This document shows positions 46,834 through 61,709 of a stretch of 64,000 bases of DNA, piece after piece. A program made the translations under genes and the position numbers. Every line of letters begins with the position of its first letter. The first letter of the stretch is position 1. Under the pieces are notes generated by a model, which searched no databases, was not told the origin of the DNA, and was given only the letters and a program-made list of their open reading frames with translations. Origin of the DNA: Spirochaeta thermophila DSM 6578. GTDB lineage: Bacteria > Spirochaetota > Spirochaetia > Winmispirales > Winmispiraceae. The stretch covers positions 124,001-188,000 of the forward strand of contig NC_017583.1 in NCBI RefSeq assembly GCF_000184345.1, written 5' to 3'.

Positions 46834-47087
46834 TGGGGATGAGAAGGGTATGAAATTTTCATGGAGAGCTATGCATTATGCATAGATTCATAAAGAAGAA
46901 AGGAACCCATGAAGCAGCGTGCTCATATCTGATGTTATGTTAAGTGAATGGAAGCGCACTTGATAGAGACATGGCATACTTTTTGAATTTTAATGAACCG
47001 GAGGAAAATAATATGAAAAACCTAGGAGTACATAAGTACAGGTCTCGTGACCGAAGAAATAGAGAGATTTTCCTTGTGGAGGGGGTT
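46834..47087. other. A+T-rich intergenic region before the giant lipoprotein gene
   Basis: This region holds the palindromic repeat (46863-46886). A possible seven-codon ORF starts at 46909 (MKQRAHI) with a GAAAGGA box. A weak promoter candidate TTGATA-17-TTGAAT lies near 46961-46990. A strong GGAGG site at 47000-47004 lies 8 nt before an in-frame ATG at 47013. Marked A+T richness contrasts with the genome average. No longer gene is seen. Confidence 0.5.
46863..46886. repeat. Left copy of a 24-bp palindromic direct repeat
   Basis: Core CTATGCATTATGCATAG (46869-46885), a perfect palindrome with 8-bp arms. It matches the copy at 61902-61925 at 20 of 24 positions in the same orientation. It lies 202 bp upstream of the giant lipoprotein ATG at 47088 and about 30 bp upstream of the rex -35. 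Confidence 0.85.
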
Positions 47088-50000
47088 ATGAAGCATATAA
47101 CAAAACTCACAGGATACGTGGTGGCGGTGATCACCCTCTTTATCGTAGTCCTTGGAGGGTGTGATGTGGGTCTGGGCGAACAGGTCGATGTGGCCCGTCC
47201 AAGAGTTGCGCTCACCAGCCATGAGTCGGGGGAGTACGTAAAAGGGGTGGTGACCCTATCGGGTACAGCCGAGGATGACACTGGGATCGAGGAGGTTCAG
47301 ATCTCCTTCGACAGAGGGGCCACCTTCAAGAAGGTGAGCAACCTCGTGAGCAAGGATGGGAAGATCGAGTGGAGTTATGCATGGGACACCACCAAGATCA
47401 CCGACGGCCGATACTATGTGGTGATCAAGGCCTTCGATTCCGGCGGCCACCAGTATCAGACCGAGGAGATTGTCTTCACTGTTGACAATCATCCTCCGGT
47501 CCTTCTCGTCTCTTCTCCTTCGAAGGTCGCGGATCCCACACAGAACCCCCACAACCAGCAGGCGATCCTGAGCGTCCATGCGGCGGACTATTCTCCCCTC
47601 GTCTCCTTCACGGTGGATGTGTGGGCGAGTGATAATCCGGAGGACGATCCCTCTACCTGGGAACATCTCTCCGGATTCCCACACACAGAGGCCCACACGG
47701 CCTCTCCGTGGAACTACACCTTTCAGTCGACTCCCTACACCCTGGACATAGGGAAGCCCCAGAGATCGTTCCATTTCGTCGTGTCCGCCGAGGACAAGGC
47801 AGGGAACATCTCGCAGACGTTCTACCATACTGATGACATATATCAGCTTGGGGGTATCACACTCACGGTGGAACAGGTACGCCAGATCCTGGAGGGGAGT
47901 CCTCCTGAAGGGATCTCGGTCACCCCTCAGGATCTTGGGGCTGTGGCCCTCTCGGCTGATGCGCCCTTCACCCTCTACTTCGACGAGGAAGAAGACAATC
48001 CGAAGATAACCTTTCTGGAGGGAGGAACCAAGTTTTTCACCTCGGAAGATATCACCATCGAGGTGGAAGACGACGATGCGGTGGACAAGGACTCGCTTGT
48101 CTTCACCCTCTCCAAATCCACGGATGGGGGACTCACCTATTCCCTCGAACCTGGATTCCCCCTCACCGGGTGGACGAACATCGTAGCTGATTCCCATATT
48201 TCCGTAAAGAAGAATGAGACCCGCCTCGTGCAGTTTGCCTTCGCCTGCACGGACCTCGAAGCGGGGAATTTTTACAAGATAGAGGTGGAGTCCAAGGATC
48301 CTTATGGTAACGATACTTCTGAGTTCAAGGAATTCGAGGTGATAACCAGCGACAATGAACCTCCCCAGATCACGGGTGTACAGATAGACGGAACCTCTCT
48401 TCCCTCGGGAGGCTTCCACGTGAGCAGTGGGTCCTACACTCTCTCCTTTACCGTTTCGGACAACGAGGAAGTCTCTACGGTGGAAGTACTTGAGAACGGC
48501 ACCTCGATCTTCCAGCAGGCCGTGAACAAGATCTCCGAGAGTTTCAGTGTTCCGGTTTCGGGGAATCCGGATGGATCGTATACGTACGAGATCATCGCAC
48601 GGGATGTGGGGGATCTCTCCACCAACGTGGTGCGCCAGGTGATAGTCGACAGCGTGGCTCCCCAGATCGAGTTTTCCATCGTGCCGCCGGTCACCAGCCC
48701 GGCCCCGGCATTCAACGGGGTGGTGAACCTCTCTGGCCTCATCTCCGACGACAATCCTGTGGATCTCCTCTACTACTACATCGGCCCGGACGACACCGAT
48801 CCTGCTGGTAGTGTCACCGTCCAGCGTGATGCGAACGGAAGGGCCATAGGAGTCTCCGGCCTCCCCGCCGGATGGCAGTCGTATGGGGGACCGAGCAACA
48901 ACGCCTGGACTCTGGAGTACGATACCACGGTCCTCTCGGATGGTACGTATTATATAGGTCTCTTGGCGGCCGACAGGAACGGGAATCTCGCAAGTTCGTT
49001 CTACACCATGGTAGTGGATCAATCCAGCGATGTGCCGGTCGTCACGGTCTCCAGCCCCAGCGACGGAGGATTTGCCGGTGCAGGCCATGTGGTGAGCGGC
49101 ACGGTGGCCGATGACGATGGTGTGGACACCACGAGCATCGAGCTGCGCTATTCGACCGACGGCGGGAGCACATGGAGCGGGTGGACGCCTGTCTCGGTGA
49201 CCGGCACGGGGAAGAACGTGTCGTTCACGTACACGCTTCCCGATCTCGGAGCGGATGGGCTCAAGCAGATAGAGATGCGGGCGAGCGACGATCCTTCGAA
49301 GAAACTGGGGAGCGCTCCCGCGGCAATAACCACTACCGAAGGGCCGGTCTCGTTCACCTACGATGCCACCGGTCCGGATGTCGACATCACCACACCCGCG
49401 ATGAATGAAGCGTTTGTGAGTAGTTTCACCGCGACAGGCACGGTGCTGGAGGAGAACTTGCAGACGTTGAGACTCAAGATCGACACCGGTTCGTGGCAAA
49501 CGCTCACACCGAGCGGTACTGCGCCCAACTACTCGTGGACCTATGATGTGGATACTACACTCTTTGATTCACTCTCCCAGGGGCCGCATTCCCTCACAGT
49601 GGAGGCTGTGGACAAGGTGGGCCAGACGGATGCCGTCCAGGTCACGTTCTACAAGGATAGTGCAGGTCCGGGTATCGTGTTCACCAGCATCCAGGAGGGT
49701 GTCAACACCATCCTCACCTCCACCAGTCCGGTGGTGGCGGGGAGTATCTCGGATGACTACTCGAACATAGCTTCCCAGATAGAGTATCGTATCGACGGGG
49801 CCGATCCCGATCCATGGCAGCAGGCCGGTGTGAGCGGGTCGGGTAAGACGGTGAGCTTCAGCATCGATGTGAGCAGCCTCTCCGATGGCCAGCACGATCT
49901 CGATATAAGGGCAACCGATGCCCTCGGGAACCAGACCGAGATAGTGGACGTACAGTTCAGGATAGATCGTGCCGCTCCCTCCCTCTCCATTACAGGTCCT

Positions 50001-53000
50001 GCGGAGGGAACGGTGTACGGTACTGTCCCCTCTGGAGTGGTCTTCACGCTCACCGGCACAGCGTCCGATGCCCTCCTCGATACCGTGACAGCCGATCTCG
50101 AGGGTACGCCTCTGAGCAACGGAGGATCCGCGACGACCTGGTCCTTCGATGTGGATAAGACAGTCTTTGATGCCCTTACTGAAGGAGCGCACACCATACA
50201 GGTGACCGCTATGGATCTGGCAGGAAGAAGTACACTCATTTCCTGGCAGTTCATCAAAGATGGTCAGCCGCCTGTCATCTCGTTCAGCAACATCAACGAG
50301 GATGGGAGCACGGTGCTCCAGGACGCCTCGCCTGTGATAAATGGTGTTGTCTCCGATATGTATGGTGTGGGGACAGTAGAGACAAGGATAGAGCAGTATA
50401 ACTACAGCACCTCCTCCTGGGAGCCTGTAGAGGACTGGATGGGTGTGGGTAACCCGGCTGGAGCCACGGTGTACGTGTGGAGCAAGGATCTCGGCCCCTC
50501 AGGTCTCAATCTGGGGGCAGGGAGGTATCGAATCTCGGTGCGGGCCACCGATACAGCTCAGAATACTCCGAACCAGGGAGAAAAGCTCCATATAGAGTTT
50601 GCAATAGACCAGCAGGCACCTGATCTTACGATAGACCCCATAGCTATGTATCAAAATGGTGACTTCACGCTCACAGGGACAGCCTCTGATGATGGGGCGA
50701 TAGCGAGCGTGAAGATAAAGGTGGACGATACCGACTTCTCCACCGGTGCCGTGGATGCGACCTATGATAGTGGAACCGGAACCTGGTCTGTCTCTGTGCC
50801 CACCGGTGGGCTTCTCTCAGGCGACCACACAGTGTATGTGCAGGCGAAAGACAGTGCGGGTAAGACGGTGATGCTCAACAAGCCGTTTGTCTTCGACAAT
50901 GAGGACCCGGGGGTAAGTATCCTCGAACCCACTCACCAGACCCGGGTGAATGGAGAAGTTACCATCCGTGGAACCACCTCTGACAATGTGGCAGTTGCAA
51001 CCGTTGAGTACAGATTTGGTAAGAACGCCACTACCTGGCAGACGAGCGGCCTTAGTGGTCTCTACAGCTGGAGCTACACCTTTACGCAGATCGAGTCTTA
51101 TGCAAACGATACGTACGCTACAGAGATAGATCCTGCGACGGGTCTGCCTCAGGCGGGAACTAATGTGTGGGCCCTCCCCTTCCAGGTGAGGGTCACCGAC
51201 GTGGCGGGGAATGTCTATGAGGAGCTCTCCTACGAGCTCTGGATCGATCCGGACATGGATACCCCGCTGGTCTACATCACGAGCCACACGAACAACCAGA
51301 CCGTGGGCGGCACGGTGCGGCTCGCAGGGTATGCCACCGACGACGACTGGGTCTACGATGTGGAGTATCGTGTGGATCCCACGGGCACGGGCTCCGGCTA
51401 TGGCTCGTGGGCCAGTGCGAACAGGATAGGTGCGGGCACCCAGGTCAACTGGTATGTGAACCTCAATGAGGACGGATCCCTCAATCCGCCTCCGGGCGAG
51501 ATCAACGAGGTCCTGGTACAGGTGAGGGCAGTAGACAGCAAAGACAATGGGCTTAGTCGCGGCATAGAAGGGGATGTGGCGAGCATCCGACTCAGGTTCG
51601 ACAGCAACGTCCCGGTGATAGAGGACGTGGAGGTCTTCAAGGCCGACGGCACGAAGGTACCGTACACCGCAGGCGAGCGTGTGGCAGGGACCTTCACCGT
51701 CGAGGCGGTGATGAGGGATGAGGGCGGTCTCTCCGAGATCGAGTGGCGGGGTGAGGGGACTACGCTCTTCACCGATGTACTCTCCGATCCCACGGTGGTG
51801 ACCACCCCGCCCGAGGTGGGTGCCTCCGAGATACGGGCCGGGGTGAAGTACCTCATCACCTCGGTGGGTACCACCGATTTCACGGCCATAGGGGCGAGCT
51901 CCAACGACGTGGGTATCACGTTCACCGCCACAGGGCCCGGAACCGGTACCGGCACGGCCTACATGGCCGTCACCCCGCCGCTCGTACCCGCAGCAGAGCT
52001 GGTCTCCGGTGAGGCTTACGCCATCTTCGATCCCGGCACCACCGACTGGACGGCGGTGGGTGCGCCCGACAACAGCGTAGGGACGCCGTTCGTGGCGACC
52101 GGTGCCGGCACGGGCGACGGCATCGCCTTCCGGATCGTGGCTGCTACGGAGCTCGTGGCAGACGAGGCCTACCGTATCTATGAGCCCGGTACCACCGACT
52201 GGACCGCAGTGGGGGCACCCGACAACAACGCAGGCACCACCTTCACGGCCACAGGTGCTGGTACCGGAGATGGGTTTGCCATAGAGCCTGAGAAGCTGAG
52301 CTTTGTGTACCGGTTCCACCTCCAGCTCGACTCCACCACCCTCAACGGCGGTGCCTATGCCGCCACGAGCGGGTTCTACCAGCTCGACCTCAGGGTGACC
52401 GACAACGCCTCGCCCACGCCCTACATGAGCCAGCAGAGCCTCAACCTGCAGATCGACAACTACTATCCGTCGGGCGAATATCTGGCCTCTCCCAATGCTG
52501 CCACAGCCGAGTACTACATTCAGGGTCGTGGCTGGGATAGCGGTACCGGGTCGGGACCCATCCAGGGGATCGGTGAGGTGGTAGTCTACTTCGAGCGTGA
52601 GGGCTCATTCATCGACCTCGCAGGAGGGGCTGGTTCCTGGACAACCCGATACGTCAAGGATGAGGCCGCAGGAGGGACCTACCAGGACGTGACCTTCCCG
52701 GCCGATACGGCGAGCGGTATCTGGGTGGATACGAACGAGATCGGGGTCGATATCGACGGTGACGGATACGTGGAAGGGTTCTCCACCGATGGAATCTACA
52801 AGAACTGGTATGCCATCTATGATACCACAGTGCTCGCGGATGGACCTGTGACCCTCCACTACGTGATCATCGATGCAGCAGGCAACGCCACCCACTATAC
52901 CCAGGATCTCTACATCCAGAACAACATTCCCCAGATCGACAACGTAGTGATAGGAACCGACCTTGACAACAGTAGCACGATCGATCCTGGCGAGACTAAG

Positions 53001-55634
53001 CTCTACAACACCAACTATGAAACTACCAACTTCACGGTCCGGAACCACTACCTCCAGTTCCAGATCAACGCCTCCTCAGGTAACGGCCAGCTCTACTACC
53101 GCGTGGGCTACGTGACGGGAACGACGAGTGTGCCGGCCTCGAGCCTCGTGAGGGGTGGTGTGTACACCATAGAGACCGTAGGCGATACGGACTGGACCAG
53201 GATCGGTGCCCTGGCCAACCAGGCGGGCATCACATTCGTGGCCACAGGACCTGGCACAGGGTCTGGTACGGCCATCTCGTACACTACCACTGAGCTCAAC
53301 GCCACCCTCACCAGCAACGTGGTGGATCTCACCGACTTCTCGAGCATCCCGGATTCAGCGGTTGCGAACGACCGCCGGTTCATCATCAAGGTGTACGATT
53401 CTACCGTGCCGGCGGGTGGTGAGGAGGAGCAGCTTGCTGCTGCCGTGCTGGTAGGGCTCACGGTGGACAACACCGATGAGGCGGTACCTGAACTTGCAGT
53501 CGCTGATATGGGACAGACATACTCCGTGGCTGAGGCGTATGTCGACAGAGTTCTCCAACCTGTGAGCTCATACGAAGACAATATCGTCACCTCTGGGGAT
53601 GGCACACGACAGGGATACGTGCAGTACGCAGCTGCGAGTAGTGACGCCGATGCCGACGTGAGCGGAAAGGTGATCTTCTTTGGTAAGGCATACGACAACC
53701 AGAACCTGCAGCGCATCCAGGTGCAGATTACAGGCTATGACGGTGGAACCGGCATCGGGCAGCCCTTCGAGATCGCCGTGGCCTCTGGTGGCACCCTCGT
53801 CTCAGCCAACAGCGCCACGATCGCCGATGTGGAGGCAGGGAATGCTGACTGGGCCTTCGAGGTGGTCTCCGGCAGTGAGTCCCTCACTGTGGACAACGGG
53901 CATGTGATCAACTGGAAGTTCGCATGGAACACCGCAACCGTGCAGAACGTGGCCCAAGACAACGTGACGTTGACCTTCACCGTGGAGGATACCTCAGGCA
54001 ATACAGGAACCCCTGTGAGCTATACGGTGGATGTACGGCCCTACATCACCGATGTGCAGCGCGATCCCGCGAACTTCAACACCTACCGGTCGAAGTACGG
54101 ATGGTACTCCCTGCGGAGGGGTGAGACTGTCCAGATCACGGGCTTCAACCTCTACAGCTCCCCATCCGATACCATAAGCTTTGGTGGAGCGGCTGTGAAT
54201 CTCCCATCCAGCGCTACGACCACCTCGTTCTCCCTGACTGTGCCGGCTACCGCGGTCTCCGGCGCCATCACCCTCATGGTGAATGGTCTTGAGGCCCTCA
54301 ACAACATCAACGACAACACGGAGACCTACAACCAGGAGTACGATACTGCTGAGCCGCGTTCGACCCTCTGGACAGATGATCGCTACGCCCACATCTGGCA
54401 GTCCAACGACACCACCGGTACCCTCGATGCAGGGTACTTCCCCGGGAGCGACAACCCTGTGCATCCTGCCATGACCGTAGATCCCTCAACCGGAAGGCTG
54501 TATGCGAGCTGGTCCCACTATGCCACCTCGCAGGTCTATCGAGCGGCGATAGATGATGCTGGAAGGACCACGGTGTTCCGGATTTACGATCCCTCAGAGC
54601 ATACCGATATCGATTACGGCGTCCGACCGGTCATCGCCTACAACGCGAACTATTACAATGGTGCTACTACCTATGGCGGTCTCTATGTCTGGGATCCACA
54701 AGCCCCGTATCAGTTCAGTTCAGCGGGAGTGGACAACTACTTCTATCAGGGTGAGAATATGGGGCACGACCAGTATCTCATGCAGTTCATCAATGAGCGC
54801 GTGGTCACGGTGGGGGATAACATCCACGTGAGCTACTACGATACCGAGACCAAGGCTCTCAAGTATATGTACATCCAGAGCGGCGATACCAGTACTGCGG
54901 AACACTCCTGGGTAAATCTCGACGGAGGCTCTGATGGGGATGATATCCAGGTGGTCTCTACCGGTCGGGTCTCTGCAGCAGGTGAGTTCAGCGCCATCGA
55001 CGTGACCCCGTTGGGCTACCCGGTAATCGCCTACTACGATATCTCCCGGCAGACCGTGCGGATCGCCCGAGCAACGAGCACCACGCCCACTACTGCAGCC
55101 GATTGGGTACTCCAGGACGTGATCAGCACCTCTGATCCCAACTACCGGTACTCTGGCAAGTACATCTCCATGCGGATCGACAGTCAAGGCTATGTCCACC
55201 TTGCCTTCTTCAGGGTGAGCACAGGTGATCTCATCTACATGAAGTCCACCAACAACCCGCAGGACGGGAGCACAGACTACACGTTCGGTCCCACTGTGGT
55301 GGTCGACAACGAAGGCTCGGTAGGTATCTGGGCCGACATCTCCCTCACCGACGACGACAGGCCGGTGATCACCTACCTCGACTTCTCGCTGGTCAACACC
55401 TTTGATGGCCTCAAGATGGCCTTCTACGATCCTGCGCTCGAACGTGAGGACGGAGATGTGGCAGGAGAACCCGACACCTCTGACGGATGGGAGACCATGT
55501 ACGCAGCCCTTGGGTATGACATCGACAACAAGCGGCTGAGCATCGAGTACGATACGGGCGGCCACAACGGATGGTGGGCTGCAATAGGGTACGCTTCGAG
55601 CGACTACTATCGAGTGGCCTACTACGTAAAGTAA
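47088..55634 (+). CDS. Giant Ig-like repeat surface lipoprotein (2848 residues)
   Basis: Signal peptide MKHITKLTGYVVAVITLF with Cys25 in the lipobox VVLGGC. Most of the protein is tandem Ig-like (Big_7-like) modules of about 90-110 residues with the pattern V.GTA.DD.G...V.....G....W.Y..DTT...DG.Y.....A.D..GN. Four copies of a phage-tail-like 45-residue repeat interrupt it (three at about residues 1580-1731, one near 2015-2065). An IPT/TIG-like domain lies at about 2314-2415, and the last 420 residues look like a beta-propeller (ASWSHYATSQVYRAAIDD; GNIHVSYYDTETKALKYMYI-type strands). Expected on the cell surface as an adhesin or structural protein. GGAGGGGG box before 47088; an in-frame ATG at 47013 with a good box is an alternative. 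A strong terminator follows. Confidence 0.88.
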   Translation: MKHITKLTGYVVAVITLFIVVLGGCDVGLGEQVDVARPRVALTSHESGEYVKGVVTLSGTAEDDTGIEEVQISFDRGATFKKVSNLVSKDGKIEWSYAWDTTKITDGRYYVVIKAFDSGGHQYQTEEIVFTVDNHPPVLLVSSPSKVADPTQNPHNQQAILSVHAADYSPLVSFTVDVWASDNPEDDPSTWEHLSGFPHTEAHTASPWNYTFQSTPYTLDIGKPQRSFHFVVSAEDKAGNISQTFYHTDDIYQLGGITLTVEQVRQILEGSPPEGISVTPQDLGAVALSADAPFTLYFDEEEDNPKITFLEGGTKFFTSEDITIEVEDDDAVDKDSLVFTLSKSTDGGLTYSLEPGFPLTGWTNIVADSHISVKKNETRLVQFAFACTDLEAGNFYKIEVESKDPYGNDTSEFKEFEVITSDNEPPQITGVQIDGTSLPSGGFHVSSGSYTLSFTVSDNEEVSTVEVLENGTSIFQQAVNKISESFSVPVSGNPDGSYTYEIIARDVGDLSTNVVRQVIVDSVAPQIEFSIVPPVTSPAPAFNGVVNLSGLISDDNPVDLLYYYIGPDDTDPAGSVTVQRDANGRAIGVSGLPAGWQSYGGPSNNAWTLEYDTTVLSDGTYYIGLLAADRNGNLASSFYTMVVDQSSDVPVVTVSSPSDGGFAGAGHVVSGTVADDDGVDTTSIELRYSTDGGSTWSGWTPVSVTGTGKNVSFTYTLPDLGADGLKQIEMRASDDPSKKLGSAPAAITTTEGPVSFTYDATGPDVDITTPAMNEAFVSSFTATGTVLEENLQTLRLKIDTGSWQTLTPSGTAPNYSWTYDVDTTLFDSLSQGPHSLTVEAVDKVGQTDAVQVTFYKDSAGPGIVFTSIQEGVNTILTSTSPVVAGSISDDYSNIASQIEYRIDGADPDPWQQAGVSGSGKTVSFSIDVSSLSDGQHDLDIRATDALGNQTEIVDVQFRIDRAAPSLSITGPAEGTVYGTVPSGVVFTLTGTASDALLDTVTADLEGTPLSNGGSATTWSFDVDKTVFDALTEGAHTIQVTAMDLAGRSTLISWQFIKDGQPPVISFSNINEDGSTVLQDASPVINGVVSDMYGVGTVETRIEQYNYSTSSWEPVEDWMGVGNPAGATVYVWSKDLGPSGLNLGAGRYRISVRATDTAQNTPNQGEKLHIEFAIDQQAPDLTIDPIAMYQNGDFTLTGTASDDGAIASVKIKVDDTDFSTGAVDATYDSGTGTWSVSVPTGGLLSGDHTVYVQAKDSAGKTVMLNKPFVFDNEDPGVSILEPTHQTRVNGEVTIRGTTSDNVAVATVEYRFGKNATTWQTSGLSGLYSWSYTFTQIESYANDTYATEIDPATGLPQAGTNVWALPFQVRVTDVAGNVYEELSYELWIDPDMDTPLVYITSHTNNQTVGGTVRLAGYATDDDWVYDVEYRVDPTGTGSGYGSWASANRIGAGTQVNWYVNLNEDGSLNPPPGEINEVLVQVRAVDSKDNGLSRGIEGDVASIRLRFDSNVPVIEDVEVFKADGTKVPYTAGERVAGTFTVEAVMRDEGGLSEIEWRGEGTTLFTDVLSDPTVVTTPPEVGASEIRAGVKYLITSVGTTDFTAIGASSNDVGITFTATGPGTGTGTAYMAVTPPLVPAAELVSGEAYAIFDPGTTDWTAVGAPDNSVGTPFVATGAGTGDGIAFRIVAATELVADEAYRIYEPGTTDWTAVGAPDNNAGTTFTATGAGTGDGFAIEPEKLSFVYRFHLQLDSTTLNGGAYAATSGFYQLDLRVTDNASPTPYMSQQSLNLQIDNYYPSGEYLASPNAATAEYYIQGRGWDSGTGSGPIQGIGEVVVYFEREGSFIDLAGGAGSWTTRYVKDEAAGGTYQDVTFPADTASGIWVDTNEIGVDIDGDGYVEGFSTDGIYKNWYAIYDTTVLADGPVTLHYVIIDAAGNATHYTQDLYIQNNIPQIDNVVIGTDLDNSSTIDPGETKLYNTNYETTNFTVRNHYLQFQINASSGNGQLYYRVGYVTGTTSVPASSLVRGGVYTIETVGDTDWTRIGALANQAGITFVATGPGTGSGTAISYTTTELNATLTSNVVDLTDFSSIPDSAVANDRRFIIKVYDSTVPAGGEEEQLAAAVLVGLTVDNTDEAVPELAVADMGQTYSVAEAYVDRVLQPVSSYEDNIVTSGDGTRQGYVQYAAASSDADADVSGKVIFFGKAYDNQNLQRIQVQITGYDGGTGIGQPFEIAVASGGTLVSANSATIADVEAGNADWAFEVVSGSESLTVDNGHVINWKFAWNTATVQNVAQDNVTLTFTVEDTSGNTGTPVSYTVDVRPYITDVQRDPANFNTYRSKYGWYSLRRGETVQITGFNLYSSPSDTISFGGAAVNLPSSATTTSFSLTVPATAVSGAITLMVNGLEALNNINDNTETYNQEYDTAEPRSTLWTDDRYAHIWQSNDTTGTLDAGYFPGSDNPVHPAMTVDPSTGRLYASWSHYATSQVYRAAIDDAGRTTVFRIYDPSEHTDIDYGVRPVIAYNANYYNGATTYGGLYVWDPQAPYQFSSAGVDNYFYQGENMGHDQYLMQFINERVVTVGDNIHVSYYDTETKALKYMYIQSGDTSTAEHSWVNLDGGSDGDDIQVVSTGRVSAAGEFSAIDVTPLGYPVIAYYDISRQTVRIARATSTTPTTAADWVLQDVISTSDPNYRYSGKYISMRIDSQGYVHLAFFRVSTGDLIYMKSTNNPQDGSTDYTFGPTVVVDNEGSVGIWADISLTDDDRPVITYLDFSLVNTFDGLKMAFYDPALEREDGDVAGEPDTSDGWETMYAALGYDIDNKRLSIEYDTGGHNGWWAAIGYASSDYYRVAYYVK
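51829..52280 (+). repeat. Three tandem phage-tail-like 45-residue repeats in the giant lipoprotein
   Basis: Each unit follows G..Y.I...GTTD[FW]TA[IV]GA..N..G..F.ATG.GTG.G.A; units begin near 51829, 51994 and 52147. The same pattern is common, to my knowledge, in tail-fibre and structural proteins of tailed phages. Confidence 0.85.
53131..53281 (+). repeat. Fourth copy of the phage-tail-like repeat
   Basis: SLVRGGVYTIETVGDTDWT, then IGALANQAGITFVATGPGTG. Same unit as at 51829-52280, separated by about 850 nt of other sequence. Confidence 0.85.
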
Positions 55635-56843: not shown

Positions 56844-59800
56844 CTAGAACATCACCACATGGGTGCCGAAGGTGAGCTTGGGCACGATCTTCGGATCCAC
56901 GTCCGAGGGGATGAACCAGAGTTCCGGCTCCACGTAGAGGCTGTAGGTGTGGAAGGCCGGGAAGCGCTTCACCTCCACGATCGGGAACTCCAGCTGGGCG
57001 AGGATGGCGCTCAAGACCACGGAGGAGATCGTCCTGGTCCCTTGGGCCTCCTCCACCTCGATGGGATCGTAGAGGAGGATGTAGCTGAAATCCGCTCCGA
57101 GGGCCAGCTTCAACGAGAGCCAGTCCCAGTCGGGCCCCAGGAACGACTCGAACGGCACGGAGAGGAGGCTCGCGAGGAGCTTGCCGCTTATGAACTGGCC
57201 CGAGAGGCGGGCCGGCTTGCCCTCGGCGGTGGTCCGCGGGCCGAGACCATAGCTCACCTGGAGCTTCACGTTGTTGTCGAAGAAGGTGAGGCCAAGGCCC
57301 GCCTTCCAGTAGGTCATGCCGAGGAAATGGGCGTCGAGGTACATCCCCTGGATGAACTCGGGTATCTCGTACCCGGCCTTGTCTCCGGCCCTGAGGCTTA
57401 TCTGCACGTCCTTAAGCCCGAAGTTGTCGTCCGCAATACCAAACGCCACGAGCTTCTCGTTGACCCTGTCGCCCTCGAGCGGGGCTATCACCTTCACCTC
57501 GGGCGGGATCTTGTCCACCACGAAGAGGGTGCGCAGGACGGCGGTCTCACCGTTCCGGAAGGAGGCCTGCACCAGGACAGGGAGCGGACCATTGGGGAGG
57601 AAGCCCGTCTCCACGCGGTACTCCCACTCCTCTCGGGCCGGAATCTCCTCGAACGTCCTCCCGTTGTCGAGACTCACCTGTATGCGCACCACTTCGAACT
57701 CCCGTATCTTCTTCCTGTAGTCCGGATCTTCGGGATCGAGCGTGGTGAGGTAGGCAGCGGTCCCTCTGATCCAGGGCCTGTTGGTGAGCATATCGCCTAT
57801 CATGTGGCTCTCGAGGGTGAGGTAGGGCCCTGTCTTCTGGTAGATGAAGCTCCGCGGCTCGCTCTCCACCCGCGCCCCATCGTGGGAGAGCACGGCCTTC
57901 AGGGTGACCTCGCCGTCGGGGACCTTGCCGGGATCGAGGACTGCCCTGAAATATCCGCGGGGGTTCACGTCGGCCGAGGTGAGGAATCCGTCCTCGAGGA
58001 AGAGTTGCACCTTCTCCACCGGCGAGGGAGCCGTCGCCACACCTTCGACCACCACGGGCCCGTGGACGACCTCACCCTCGGAGGGGAAGAGGATGTGCAC
58101 CGAGGCGCCCTCGGTCCGTGCCACCACGAAGAGGTTCCTGTCCACGAGGGCCACATTGCCTGCCTTATCCCTGGCCTCGAGTCTCAGGTTGTACCACCCG
58201 GGCGAGAGCTCACCCAACGGTATGCGAGTGGTGAGCACCCTCTCGAGCGGGAGCGTCACCTCCACCGGTTCCAGCTGGTTGTTGATGGGCTCGAGGATCC
58301 CCTTGAAGGAGGTGAGCTGGATGTTGTCGGAGACACGGCCTGAGAGCCGGACCTCTCCCGAGACGGTGGCCCCTTCTTCCGGGGTGGTGATGGTGATCTC
58401 GGGAGGCGTGTTGTCCACGTTCACCAGCGCAGAGTACGAGGCCTCTATGCCATATCCATCGCGTACCACGAACTGCACCGCGTACGTACCGTCCGTGAAG
58501 ATGGTGGTATCGAGCGGGTAGGTCCACTCCGTACCTTCTATGGTGAGGTGGGCGAAGTGGAAGGAGTTCCCGTTGTCGAAGGAGACCCGTACCGAATCGA
58601 TCCCGTTCGCGTCACCCGCCGTTCCCCTGAGGATCACCGTTCCTCTTACGGTCTCCTCGACCGTGGGGGAGACCATGGCACCCTCCGGTTCGCTGAGACT
58701 CACCCTGAGTGTTTTCGAGGCGATCTCCCCCTGCAACCCGAACAGATCCACGGCGTAGATCTCCACGGTGTGTTCATTGTCGGAGAGGGAGGAGAGGGGA
58801 ATGGTGAAGGAGAAGGTGTGCTGCGCAGGCACCTCCTGCCAGGTGCCGTCGTCGAGCTTCCATACGATCTTGGAGATGCCGTCGTCGTCGAAGGCCATGC
58901 CCGCAATCGTGACGTCCTTGGTGACCACGAAGTCGTCGGGTGGTGTCTGGATCTCCACGTGGGGTTTGTCGAGCGAGAGGTCCACGGAGGGTGAGAGGAT
59001 GGTCTCCGAGGTGTTCCCTGCCGCATCTTCCGCAATGAGCTTCATGGTCTTTCCCTCCTCGGCGAGGTGGGAGAAGTCGACCGTGAACGAGAAGATCCCG
59101 TCTTCCGGAGAGAGGGGGGTGAAGGAGGGCTCCGGGGTACTGGCGGCTGCTTCCTCGGAGTCCCCCGATGAGGCAGAGGGTTCAGACGGTCCCTGTTCCA
59201 GGAGGTAGCCGAACCGCACCACCGGGGCCTCGGAGATGATGGAGCCTGCCACCAGGATGGTGCCGTTCACCGTCTTTCCCGCCTCGGGGGTGGTGAAGGC
59301 GAGGGTGGGCGGGGTGGCGTCGTAGAAGAGGTGGATGCGCCGGTGGGTCATGTGACCTGCGTCGTCCACTGCCTTTACCTCCAGGAGGTGTGGGCCGGGG
59401 GTGAGCTGGGACACGGCCATCGTGGTGGAAAACCGGGGTTCTGAGGCGGATACGCTCACCCAGGGGGCACCGTCGAGCCTGTAGGAGAGCCGGGGCAGAC
59501 CGGCGTCGTCCTGCACCTCTCCCTCGATGGTGAGCGACGTGTTGAGGTACGCCCCATCCGAGGGGGTACTAAGCGTGAGTACAGGGGCATCGAGATCGAT
59601 CTCGGCATTGAAGCGGGGTGAACGGTAGGTGCGGCCGTCGGTTGAGGTCACCACCACCTGAACGCCCGAGGCCTTTCCCGCCTTCTGAGGCGTGATGATG
59701 AGGTGGGTGTCCTCGTGTCTCACGCTGAGGAGATCGTCGGCCCCTTCGAGTACCACCTCTCGTATCCCTTTTCCCGAGAAGAAGCCTACGAGGGGGGTGC

Positions 59801-61709
59801 GATCCGTCCAGACCATGGTCCCATGGGAGAGGCGGTAGTCGAGGAGGAACACCTCATCGGGCTTGACAGGCGGGGGGAGACTCTCGCCTTCCTTCTTCGG
59901 CGGAGGTGCCTGATAGGAGATGACCTGGGGAAAGAGAGAGGTACGCCCGTCGCGCATGGTGAGCGCAAAGACCGCGGCGAGGGCCCCATGGCCTGCCTTG
60001 GGATCAAGAGAGGCCTCGAAGACATAGCCGCCTTCTTCGTCAGGACTGATCTTGAGACCCGTCTTTCTCACCGTGTTCGGGAACTGCGGGATGTTCTCGG
60101 GATCGAGGGGCATGAGGGCCCAGAGGTCGTCCCCTCCCACGTAGAGCACGCCGGAGGAGGGCTTCTCCTGGGCAGTGATCCTTCCCCGGAGGACGGCCTT
60201 GCGGGAGGCATCGTAGGTGAGGCCGTTCTTCCAGGTGAGGGATTCGCCCGTGTCGGTATAGAACAGCTCCTCGACCGTGAGGATCGGCGCGTTGGGGGCG
60301 ATCTGGAACGAGACCTTCACCGGAGGGCTCTCCAGACCGTAGACGTCCACCCCCATGAGGGTGAGGGTGTGTCGGCCCGGGGGAAGTCCCTCGAGGGGTA
60401 CGTAGAATCCCATGGAGGCGGGGATCTCAACCCCCTGTTTGGGATCGTCTCCCATACCGAGGACCCTTACCTTCTCAGGCGGGTTGGGTCCCACGATACG
60501 GCCCACGAGCACCTCATCCGAGGTGAGGAGCGGCTCACCCTCTTCCTGGGTGGGGAAGAGGATCTCCACCCGAGGCTGGAAGGCCTTTCTGTCGTTTTTG
60601 AGCCGGAGCTTCCGGGAAGAGAGGTTGCCGCTCGCATCCTCTGCATGCACGATGAGTTCGAGCGTGCCGTCCTTTTCCTGCGTGGTGTCGAGGGTGAGGT
60701 GCCAGTACGGGTTCCCTGGTATGATCTCGAGGTCGTGCTCTTCGCCCTTGAAGGTGTACCAGAGCCGTTTCACCCCTATGGCATCCCTCACCGTGCCAGT
60801 GATGCCCACCTTCCCGAAGACCACGGCCTCGTCTTCAGGGTTGAGTACGCTGAGTGTGGCCGGTTCGTTGTCCACGAAGAGGAGGAAGGGGGTGCGGACT
60901 TCTGTCCCGGTGCCGTCGGTGGCGGTGAACCACCACACATAGGGGCCGTCGGGGAAGGGCCTGGTATCGAGAGGAAGGGAAAATCGGTAGACTCCTTCGC
61001 CCTTGTCGTACTTGAGACCCATCGTGAGGGTTTTCTCCGGGATGTGCTCCTCCTCTCCCTTTTTGTTTACTGCGGTATAGGAGGGTATGGTGACGGTGAG
61101 TGCTTCCACGCCGGTCTCGTCCCTCACCACACCTTCGAGAGCCATCTTCCCCGAGACAAGGGCGCCACTCTGATGCGAGGTGAACTCGATCACCGGCGGA
61201 GCGGTGTCGAGCACGAATGTGGAGGTGATCTCCGGTCCCTCGGTGCCGTTCACGTCCACCGCCTTCACCGAGATGGTGTGGGTTCCCTCGGTGAGTCGTG
61301 AGGCGGGTACTGCGACCCGCCAGTACTCGGTTCCCTCGGCCGTCTGGTAGGAACCGTCGTCGAGCTTCACGAGGACCCGTGCCACGCCGTCGTCGTCGAC
61401 CGCCACGCCCACGATGTTGAAGGCATTACGCACCACCTCGTACTCCTGTGGGGAGACGATCCGCACCACCGGGAGGTCGGAGGCAGGATCCACCTTGATG
61501 TTGAACGGTCCGGCGATGGACTCGTTTCCTGCAAAATCGATGGCCTTTATGATCACGTTGTGGGTACCGGGTTTTGTCTCCTGGAGGTCGAACTCTTTTT
61601 TCCAGTCCTCCTTCCCCTCTGCTTCCTGCCACTCGGTGGTACCGCCAGCATAGAGCCAGACGGAGATGAGGAGAAGAAAGAGAAATGTCGTGAGGCTACG
61701 CAGCTTCAT
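56844..61709 (-). CDS. Ig-like repeat protein with C-terminal beta-barrel-like domain (1621 residues)
   Basis: Cleavable signal peptide MKLRSLTTFLFLLLISVWLYA, no lipobox. About a dozen Ig-like modules related to those of the giant lipoprotein follow (VVRIVSPQEYEVVRNAFNIVGVAVDDDGVA; VMAFDDDGI-type AFDDDGISKIVWKLDDGTW). The last 190-220 residues alternate polar and hydrophobic residues (YLDAHFLGMTYWKAGLGLTFF; WDWLSLKLALGADFSYILLY; SLYVEPELWFIP) and end in Phe, which suggests an outer-membrane beta-barrel or beta-sheet anchor. AAGGAGG box. A 218-nt leader region separates it from the LysM gene upstream. Expected at the outer membrane. Confidence 0.85.
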   Translation of the reverse strand: MKLRSLTTFLFLLLISVWLYAGGTTEWQEAEGKEDWKKEFDLQETKPGTHNVIIKAIDFAGNESIAGPFNIKVDPASDLPVVRIVSPQEYEVVRNAFNIVGVAVDDDGVARVLVKLDDGSYQTAEGTEYWRVAVPASRLTEGTHTISVKAVDVNGTEGPEITSTFVLDTAPPVIEFTSHQSGALVSGKMALEGVVRDETGVEALTVTIPSYTAVNKKGEEEHIPEKTLTMGLKYDKGEGVYRFSLPLDTRPFPDGPYVWWFTATDGTGTEVRTPFLLFVDNEPATLSVLNPEDEAVVFGKVGITGTVRDAIGVKRLWYTFKGEEHDLEIIPGNPYWHLTLDTTQEKDGTLELIVHAEDASGNLSSRKLRLKNDRKAFQPRVEILFPTQEEGEPLLTSDEVLVGRIVGPNPPEKVRVLGMGDDPKQGVEIPASMGFYVPLEGLPPGRHTLTLMGVDVYGLESPPVKVSFQIAPNAPILTVEELFYTDTGESLTWKNGLTYDASRKAVLRGRITAQEKPSSGVLYVGGDDLWALMPLDPENIPQFPNTVRKTGLKISPDEEGGYVFEASLDPKAGHGALAAVFALTMRDGRTSLFPQVISYQAPPPKKEGESLPPPVKPDEVFLLDYRLSHGTMVWTDRTPLVGFFSGKGIREVVLEGADDLLSVRHEDTHLIITPQKAGKASGVQVVVTSTDGRTYRSPRFNAEIDLDAPVLTLSTPSDGAYLNTSLTIEGEVQDDAGLPRLSYRLDGAPWVSVSASEPRFSTTMAVSQLTPGPHLLEVKAVDDAGHMTHRRIHLFYDATPPTLAFTTPEAGKTVNGTILVAGSIISEAPVVRFGYLLEQGPSEPSASSGDSEEAAASTPEPSFTPLSPEDGIFSFTVDFSHLAEEGKTMKLIAEDAAGNTSETILSPSVDLSLDKPHVEIQTPPDDFVVTKDVTIAGMAFDDDGISKIVWKLDDGTWQEVPAQHTFSFTIPLSSLSDNEHTVEIYAVDLFGLQGEIASKTLRVSLSEPEGAMVSPTVEETVRGTVILRGTAGDANGIDSVRVSFDNGNSFHFAHLTIEGTEWTYPLDTTIFTDGTYAVQFVVRDGYGIEASYSALVNVDNTPPEITITTPEEGATVSGEVRLSGRVSDNIQLTSFKGILEPINNQLEPVEVTLPLERVLTTRIPLGELSPGWYNLRLEARDKAGNVALVDRNLFVVARTEGASVHILFPSEGEVVHGPVVVEGVATAPSPVEKVQLFLEDGFLTSADVNPRGYFRAVLDPGKVPDGEVTLKAVLSHDGARVESEPRSFIYQKTGPYLTLESHMIGDMLTNRPWIRGTAAYLTTLDPEDPDYRKKIREFEVVRIQVSLDNGRTFEEIPAREEWEYRVETGFLPNGPLPVLVQASFRNGETAVLRTLFVVDKIPPEVKVIAPLEGDRVNEKLVAFGIADDNFGLKDVQISLRAGDKAGYEIPEFIQGMYLDAHFLGMTYWKAGLGLTFFDNNVKLQVSYGLGPRTTAEGKPARLSGQFISGKLLASLLSVPFESFLGPDWDWLSLKLALGADFSYILLYDPIEVEEAQGTRTISSVVLSAILAQLEFPIVEVKRFPAFHTYSLYVEPELWFIPSDVDPKIVPKLTFGTHVVMF

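Follow-up and report, generated by a model that had tools for sequence, protein, structure and literature searches.

Does a short repeat unit in the surface lipoprotein of a spirochaete truly share ancestry with units of phage structural proteins, and if so, how might it have arrived there and why has it been kept? The question is raised by the window, that is, the whole 64,000-nucleotide stretch of the Spirochaeta thermophila DSM 6578 genome analysed here, in which a 2896-aa ORF running from GTG 46944 (46944-55634, + strand) carries four such units, all in frame. The likely start of the lipoprotein gene is ATG 47088, which leaves a protein of 2848 aa whose signal peptide ends in VLGGC with a lipobox-like LGGC. 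Each unit is about 47 aa long. Units 1 to 3 stand in tandem with short linkers at site 1, between the LSEIEWRGEGTTLFTDVL part and the FVYRFHLQLDSTTL part of an Ig-like host module whose limits were set by eye, while unit 4 lies about 0.85 kb downstream at site 2, placed after YYRVGYVTGTTSVPAS in another Ig-like host module. A search of the window's genome found these four units only. The features are as follows, with bit scores from a profile of viral units only.

46944..55634, + strand: giant Ig-array surface lipoprotein gene, with Big_7 in 8 stretches and the lipobox judged by eye
51606..52475, + strand: site-1 Ig-like host module, with homologous modules lacking the unit in genomes G344, G409, G346 and G408
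51825..51968, + strand: unit 1 (67.0 bits), with same-site orthologues in G001, G002, G376 and G355
51993..52136, + strand: unit 2 (64.1 bits), with orthologues in G001 and G002
52146..52289, + strand: unit 3 (72.5 bits), 71% identical to unit 2 in amino acids
52923..53489, + strand: site-2 Ig-like host module, the site being empty in G048 and occupied in G294, a member of the same family
53139..53282, + strand: unit 4, isolated (57.9 bits), with same-site orthologues in G001, G002, G376, G355 and G294

Beyond the units, the C-terminal part of the lipoprotein (54012-55631, + strand) has a weak TIG match as its sole domain match, and short repeated motifs, noted by eye, suggest a propeller. The adjoining 1621-aa protein (56844-61709, - strand) is another Ig array. 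It has seven Big_7 stretches, and the Ig-like domain of phage tip protein J matches it below threshold, at 23.4 bits against a cut-off of 29.

The profile was built from 79 viral units with no bacterial members. Outside the four units, its best score across 997 window frames was 4.1 bits, and the top score in 1000 shuffles of the window protein was 9.1 bits. The earlier note was therefore right to place four units among Ig-like modules, and the kinship it claimed with units of phage structural proteins proved stronger than stated, given the match to a viral-only profile and the 38 clusters of viral ORFs described below. An independent origin, in which low-complexity repeats rich in Gly and Thr came to be alike by chance, could draw on a composition rich in Gly, Thr and Ala and on tblastn matches that tend to end before the Gly-rich part, probably because of the BLAST low-complexity filter, but it is refuted by viral-only profile scores of 57.9-72.5 bits against at most 9.1 in the shuffles and runs against the occurrence of the same fold in predicted viral models; we give it next to no chance.

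By tblastn, 3 of 50,697 phage records contained the unit, namely a Synechococcus cyanophage and two spring podovirus genomes. The unit is rare in this collection at the sensitivity used, and the early ending of the matches perhaps adds to the rarity. Across 2.9 million viral contigs, at least 428 relatives of the unit were present among the 600 candidate stretches listed, and the best 80 of these were kept for analysis. An iterated profile found 111 units in 91 viral ORFs over the kept loci, and 17 units in 13 ORFs of GTDB contigs. When the units were masked and the 104 ORFs and the window protein were compared by all-against-all BLAST with single linkage, they fell into 46 clusters; 38 of these include viral ORFs and are mutually unrelated, many being virion proteins, and 10 include bacterial ORFs, two being common to both. 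The unit is present as a single copy, mostly in loops, in 84 of the 104 ORFs. Among 78 unit-carrying ORFs or ORF pieces scanned against Pfam and PHROG, matches were obtained to tail fibre J (phrog_31) and tail protein phrog_2048 (7 each), Phage-tail_3 (6), internal virion protein phrog_511 (4), and the tail tube family Phage_tube_2 and the T7 tail fibre N-terminus Phage_T7_tail (2 each). Four viral contigs (L028, L043, L044 and L087) each have the unit in two different nearby ORFs. Two queries against plasmids gave no match to the unit.

The manner in which the unit enters its host proteins was examined by cutting the units out, aligning the host proteins and comparing unit positions. The site was common to both proteins in 161 pair comparisons, many of them from near-identical contigs. 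Empty sites were revealed by the filled L047/L048 against L069, which is without the unit (56% identity over 1194 aa), by L049 against L065/L066 (54%), by L085 against L061 (46%) and by L072 against L041 (52%). In these pairs the flanks still align, and the difference amounts to about 47 residues, at times with a few neighbours; phage homologues with and without the unit differ by a clean in-frame insertion. Pfam matches the tail tube protein L025 in two stretches; the better one ends at residue 171, shortly after the unit (163-206) begins, which fits insertion within the domain. An optional in-frame loop insertion was likewise found in the spirochaetes, where site 2 is empty in G048, whose module aligns to either side of it, and filled in same-family G294 and in the window's family.

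Palindromic elements insert into Rickettsia genes, and an active in-frame DNA insertion element, instead of a protein domain, might similarly account for the clean in-frame insertions seen at numerous places in unrelated genes and for the abrupt unit boundaries. Nucleotide conservation, however, is no greater than that of the protein accounts for. Across host families, nucleotide and amino acid identity of the units are both about 57%, and fourfold sites are identical at 0.310 against 0.296 expected from codon use (119,361 site comparisons). Being barely above the codon-use expectation, these sites indicate that the protein is conserved and the DNA is not. Units at different sites of the same contig reach 0.578 nucleotide identity, against 0.570 for units of different contigs and families. 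At fourfold sites, same-contig unit pairs show a slight excess (0.396 vs 0.341; 381 sites), matching what a few intragenic duplications would give. A mobile DNA element is rejected on the silent sites, and the confident protein fold predicted for the unit (pLDDT 96.1) also speaks against it; we regard it as very improbable.

The consensus of the unit reads AGxFVxGxxYxIxxVGTTDFTxIGAxxNxVGTxFTATGxGxGTGTA. AlphaFold2, run on 87 units, predicted for the unit alone a structure with a pLDDT of 96.1 and a pTM of 0.78, comprising strands at 11-16, 35-37 and 47-50 and a short helix at 22-25; the unit is thus confidently predicted to fold autonomously. The strongly conserved residues, mostly Gly, Thr, Phe, Tyr and Ile with one Asp, may all be structural. 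In an AlphaFold2 model of site 2, the unit was predicted at a pLDDT of 90-95 and the host module poorly, at about 46-76; for the second model a misaligned L098 row was left out of the alignment. Using Foldseek, we recovered seven predicted viral proteins from BFVD at E<=0.001 (TMq 0.82-0.97), and 17 rows from the PDB with none at E<=0.001, such an absence being no proof of a new fold. A profile search of the PDB returned two rows (best E 0.18) with no convincing match to the unit, and Pfam and PHROG gave few and weak matches (best 0.0047 and 0.014, respectively) with no convincing model.

A stretch matching the last 647 aa of the window protein (its C-terminal part, 53691-55631) was found in 47 of 392 Spirochaetota genomes. 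The unit occurs in 12 of the 392, all within those 47, and in each of the 12 the units lie in giant ORFs of the lipoprotein family that share this C-terminal part. At the threshold used, the remaining 35 genomes are without the unit, although G346, among these, shows a weak copy at 22 bits; the unit is therefore dispensable. In one spirochaete genome, G256 (L182, L183), diverged units are spread over five giant ORFs (2038-6178 aa).

The earlier note had described three tandem, very similar copies and one isolated copy, suggesting recent duplication. The arrangement is correct, but close similarity is limited to units 2 and 3 (71% amino acid identity), with unit 1 sharing 50-52% with units 2 and 3 and 56% with the isolated unit 4. 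When repeat number was compared among relatives, as the note had proposed, three plus one proved to be kept in the window genome and in both sister genomes at the same two sites: G001, whose protein is 80% identical to the window protein, and G002, of another genus, at 60%. Positional orthologues of the window units are 88-96% identical in G001 and 62-75% in G002. Recent tandem duplication is thus rejected. The shared layout and the orthologue identities place the three-plus-one arrangement before the split of the two genera, and comparison of the positional orthologues with the 71% within the window dates the duplication behind units 2 and 3 to about the time of that split. Further afield, a single unit occupies site 1 in G376 and G355; at site 2 there is one unit each in the window genome, G001, G002, G376, G355 and G294, while G256 and G346 have weak copies there; and units stand at other loops in G406, G393, L098, G404, G331 and G391. 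No unit was detected at E 0.01 in G344, G409, G045, G408, G398, G309, G048, G123 and G129. Composition was uninformative about recent transfer: the units have a GC3 of 66.7-85.4, against 71.2 +/- 8.8 in 48-codon windows of the gene.

Among GTDB species genomes, 13 of 48 candidate stretches were relatives of the unit, 11 of the 13 records being MAGs. Nine of the unit proteins were scanned: three have FG-GAP, PATR or GEVED/fn3 domains above the cut-off, one begins with a weak PilX-like match that stays below it, phage tail-fibre families are matched by two, and the other three match nothing. Cellular surface proteins are thus among them, and proviral ones may be too. A unit widespread in bacterial surface proteins with no phage relatives, the outcome that the earlier note had named as telling against it, is not what was found, though some bacterial surface proteins carry the unit. 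FG-GAP_2 was matched by 3 of the 78 unit-carrying ORFs, including L100, which with L101 and L102 forms a set of related proteins having the unit at a similar place, two of them from Planctomycetota records. A Verrucomicrobia MAG (L094 / G426) has six units, three of them in one 9621-aa ORF.

In other phyla, the unit was present in 1 of 294 Planctomycetota, 3 of 288 Verrucomicrobiota and 2 of 299 Pseudomonadota genomes, counts that each include one genome per phylum chosen because it carries the unit. The phylum scans used thresholds of 0.001 and 0.0001, and all 12 Spirochaetota genomes also pass 0.0001. One could thus propose that the unit arose in bacterial surface proteins, with the spirochaete family near the source, and was taken up by phages: it is commoner in Spirochaetota (11 of 391 with the window genome excluded, against 3 of 878 in the three phyla with the centre genomes excluded; Fisher p 0.0003) and is retained at two sites in the spirochaete family. 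Host proteins, however, are far more varied on the viral side, as the cluster counts above indicate, and at least 428 viral stretches stand against 13 in GTDB species genomes, a comparison made with slightly different patterns and with more loci retained on the viral side. We judge a bacterial origin to be unlikely. The direction of transfer was also sought in a tree of the units, which gave no resolution: it rests on 45 columns, stars 13 of 97 inner branches and needs seven label changes, and the spirochaete units were not placed inside a phage clade.

Considering all of this, our preferred and fairly probable explanation is that phage virions carry an uncatalogued mini-domain which inserts promiscuously into loops, and that spirochaetes acquired it long ago and kept it as a surface decoration. 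The spirochaete and viral units are kin, they are inserted in frame, and they have been retained. The unit would be a self-folding, beta-rich mini-domain of about 47 aa by prediction, set in frame into loops of unrelated proteins, with its main pool probably in tailed-phage virion proteins. An ancestral giant Ig-array lipoprotein of spirochaetes would have gained it by illegitimate recombination, most likely from phage DNA, so that the direction we infer is from phage to bacterium. Probably one unit arrived first in a loop of each of two Ig-like modules; site 1 may then have expanded to three units in the window's family, and several loops of the spirochaete family may have come to be occupied, the unit presumably being retained by selection on the protein. 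Promiscuous Ig-like add-ons on phages are thought to aid weak binding to glycans or surfaces. By analogy, the most likely role of the units would be a putative adhesive one, as extra surface contact patches that widen or strengthen such weak binding. Weighing against the preferred explanation are the unit tree, in which the spirochaete units do not nest among phage ones, the rarity of the unit in the 50,697 phage records at the sensitivity used, and its absence, at the threshold applied, from 35 of the 47 Spirochaetota genomes with the C-terminal part.

The unit might instead be a structural spacer that fills, rigidifies and protects long loops from proteolysis without any ligand. Conserved positions that are Gly, Thr or hydrophobic, like a fold core, the varying presence of the unit among relatives and its occurrence in virion proteins unlikely to touch a receptor, namely tail-tube and internal ones, are consistent with this, yet T-D-[FW]-T and GxGxGTG stay conserved from one host family to the next (about 57% identity, with silent sites saturated), a high level for filler; we consider this role possible but doubtful. 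It is quite improbable, in our estimation, that a shared ligand, or binding of the mini-domain to itself, explains its display on the outer surfaces of both phage virions and spirochaete or other cells, with the retained bacterial copies then acting as a competitor or docking site for unit-bearing phages.

The unit enlarges the set of modules common to phage virions and bacterial surface proteins by a highly promiscuous domain that is apparently undescribed, has a confidently predicted fold and lacks a convincing relative of solved structure. With one profile, portions of hundreds of proteins from uncultured phages would be annotated, and in the spirochaetes the gain, loss and retention of such a module in cells can be traced along a bacterial family.

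As for known systems, the accessible portions of the literature yielded no paper with the motif letters and nothing naming the unit. The SH3-like FeoA (PDB 2k5f) was the sole chain with Z >= 2 among 38 compared with the predicted unit (Z 3.6, rmsd 2.5 over 46 residues), but profile similarity is absent (hhalign probability 0.7%, 9 columns), and kinship with it was rejected. Small beta add-on domains of phage virion proteins include the Ig-like, fn3 and BACON domains. Like them, the unit is a small beta domain common to unrelated virion proteins, optional between relatives and present in bacterial surface proteins too; unlike them, it is about half the size, has no Pfam or PHROG model that we found, occurs mostly as single loop copies and, over 90 units at E<=0.1, had no Ig family among its Pfam matches. 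According to the accessible part of Smug et al. 2023 (PMC10684548), in which mosaicism was detected through ECOD domains and sequence in 133,574 representative phage proteins, otherwise unrelated phage proteins share fragments, markedly so among receptor-binding proteins. Although the unit is not named in that part of the article and is nearly absent from the 50,697 phage records, it resembles this mosaicism (PMC10684548) in being a fragment common to otherwise unrelated phage proteins.
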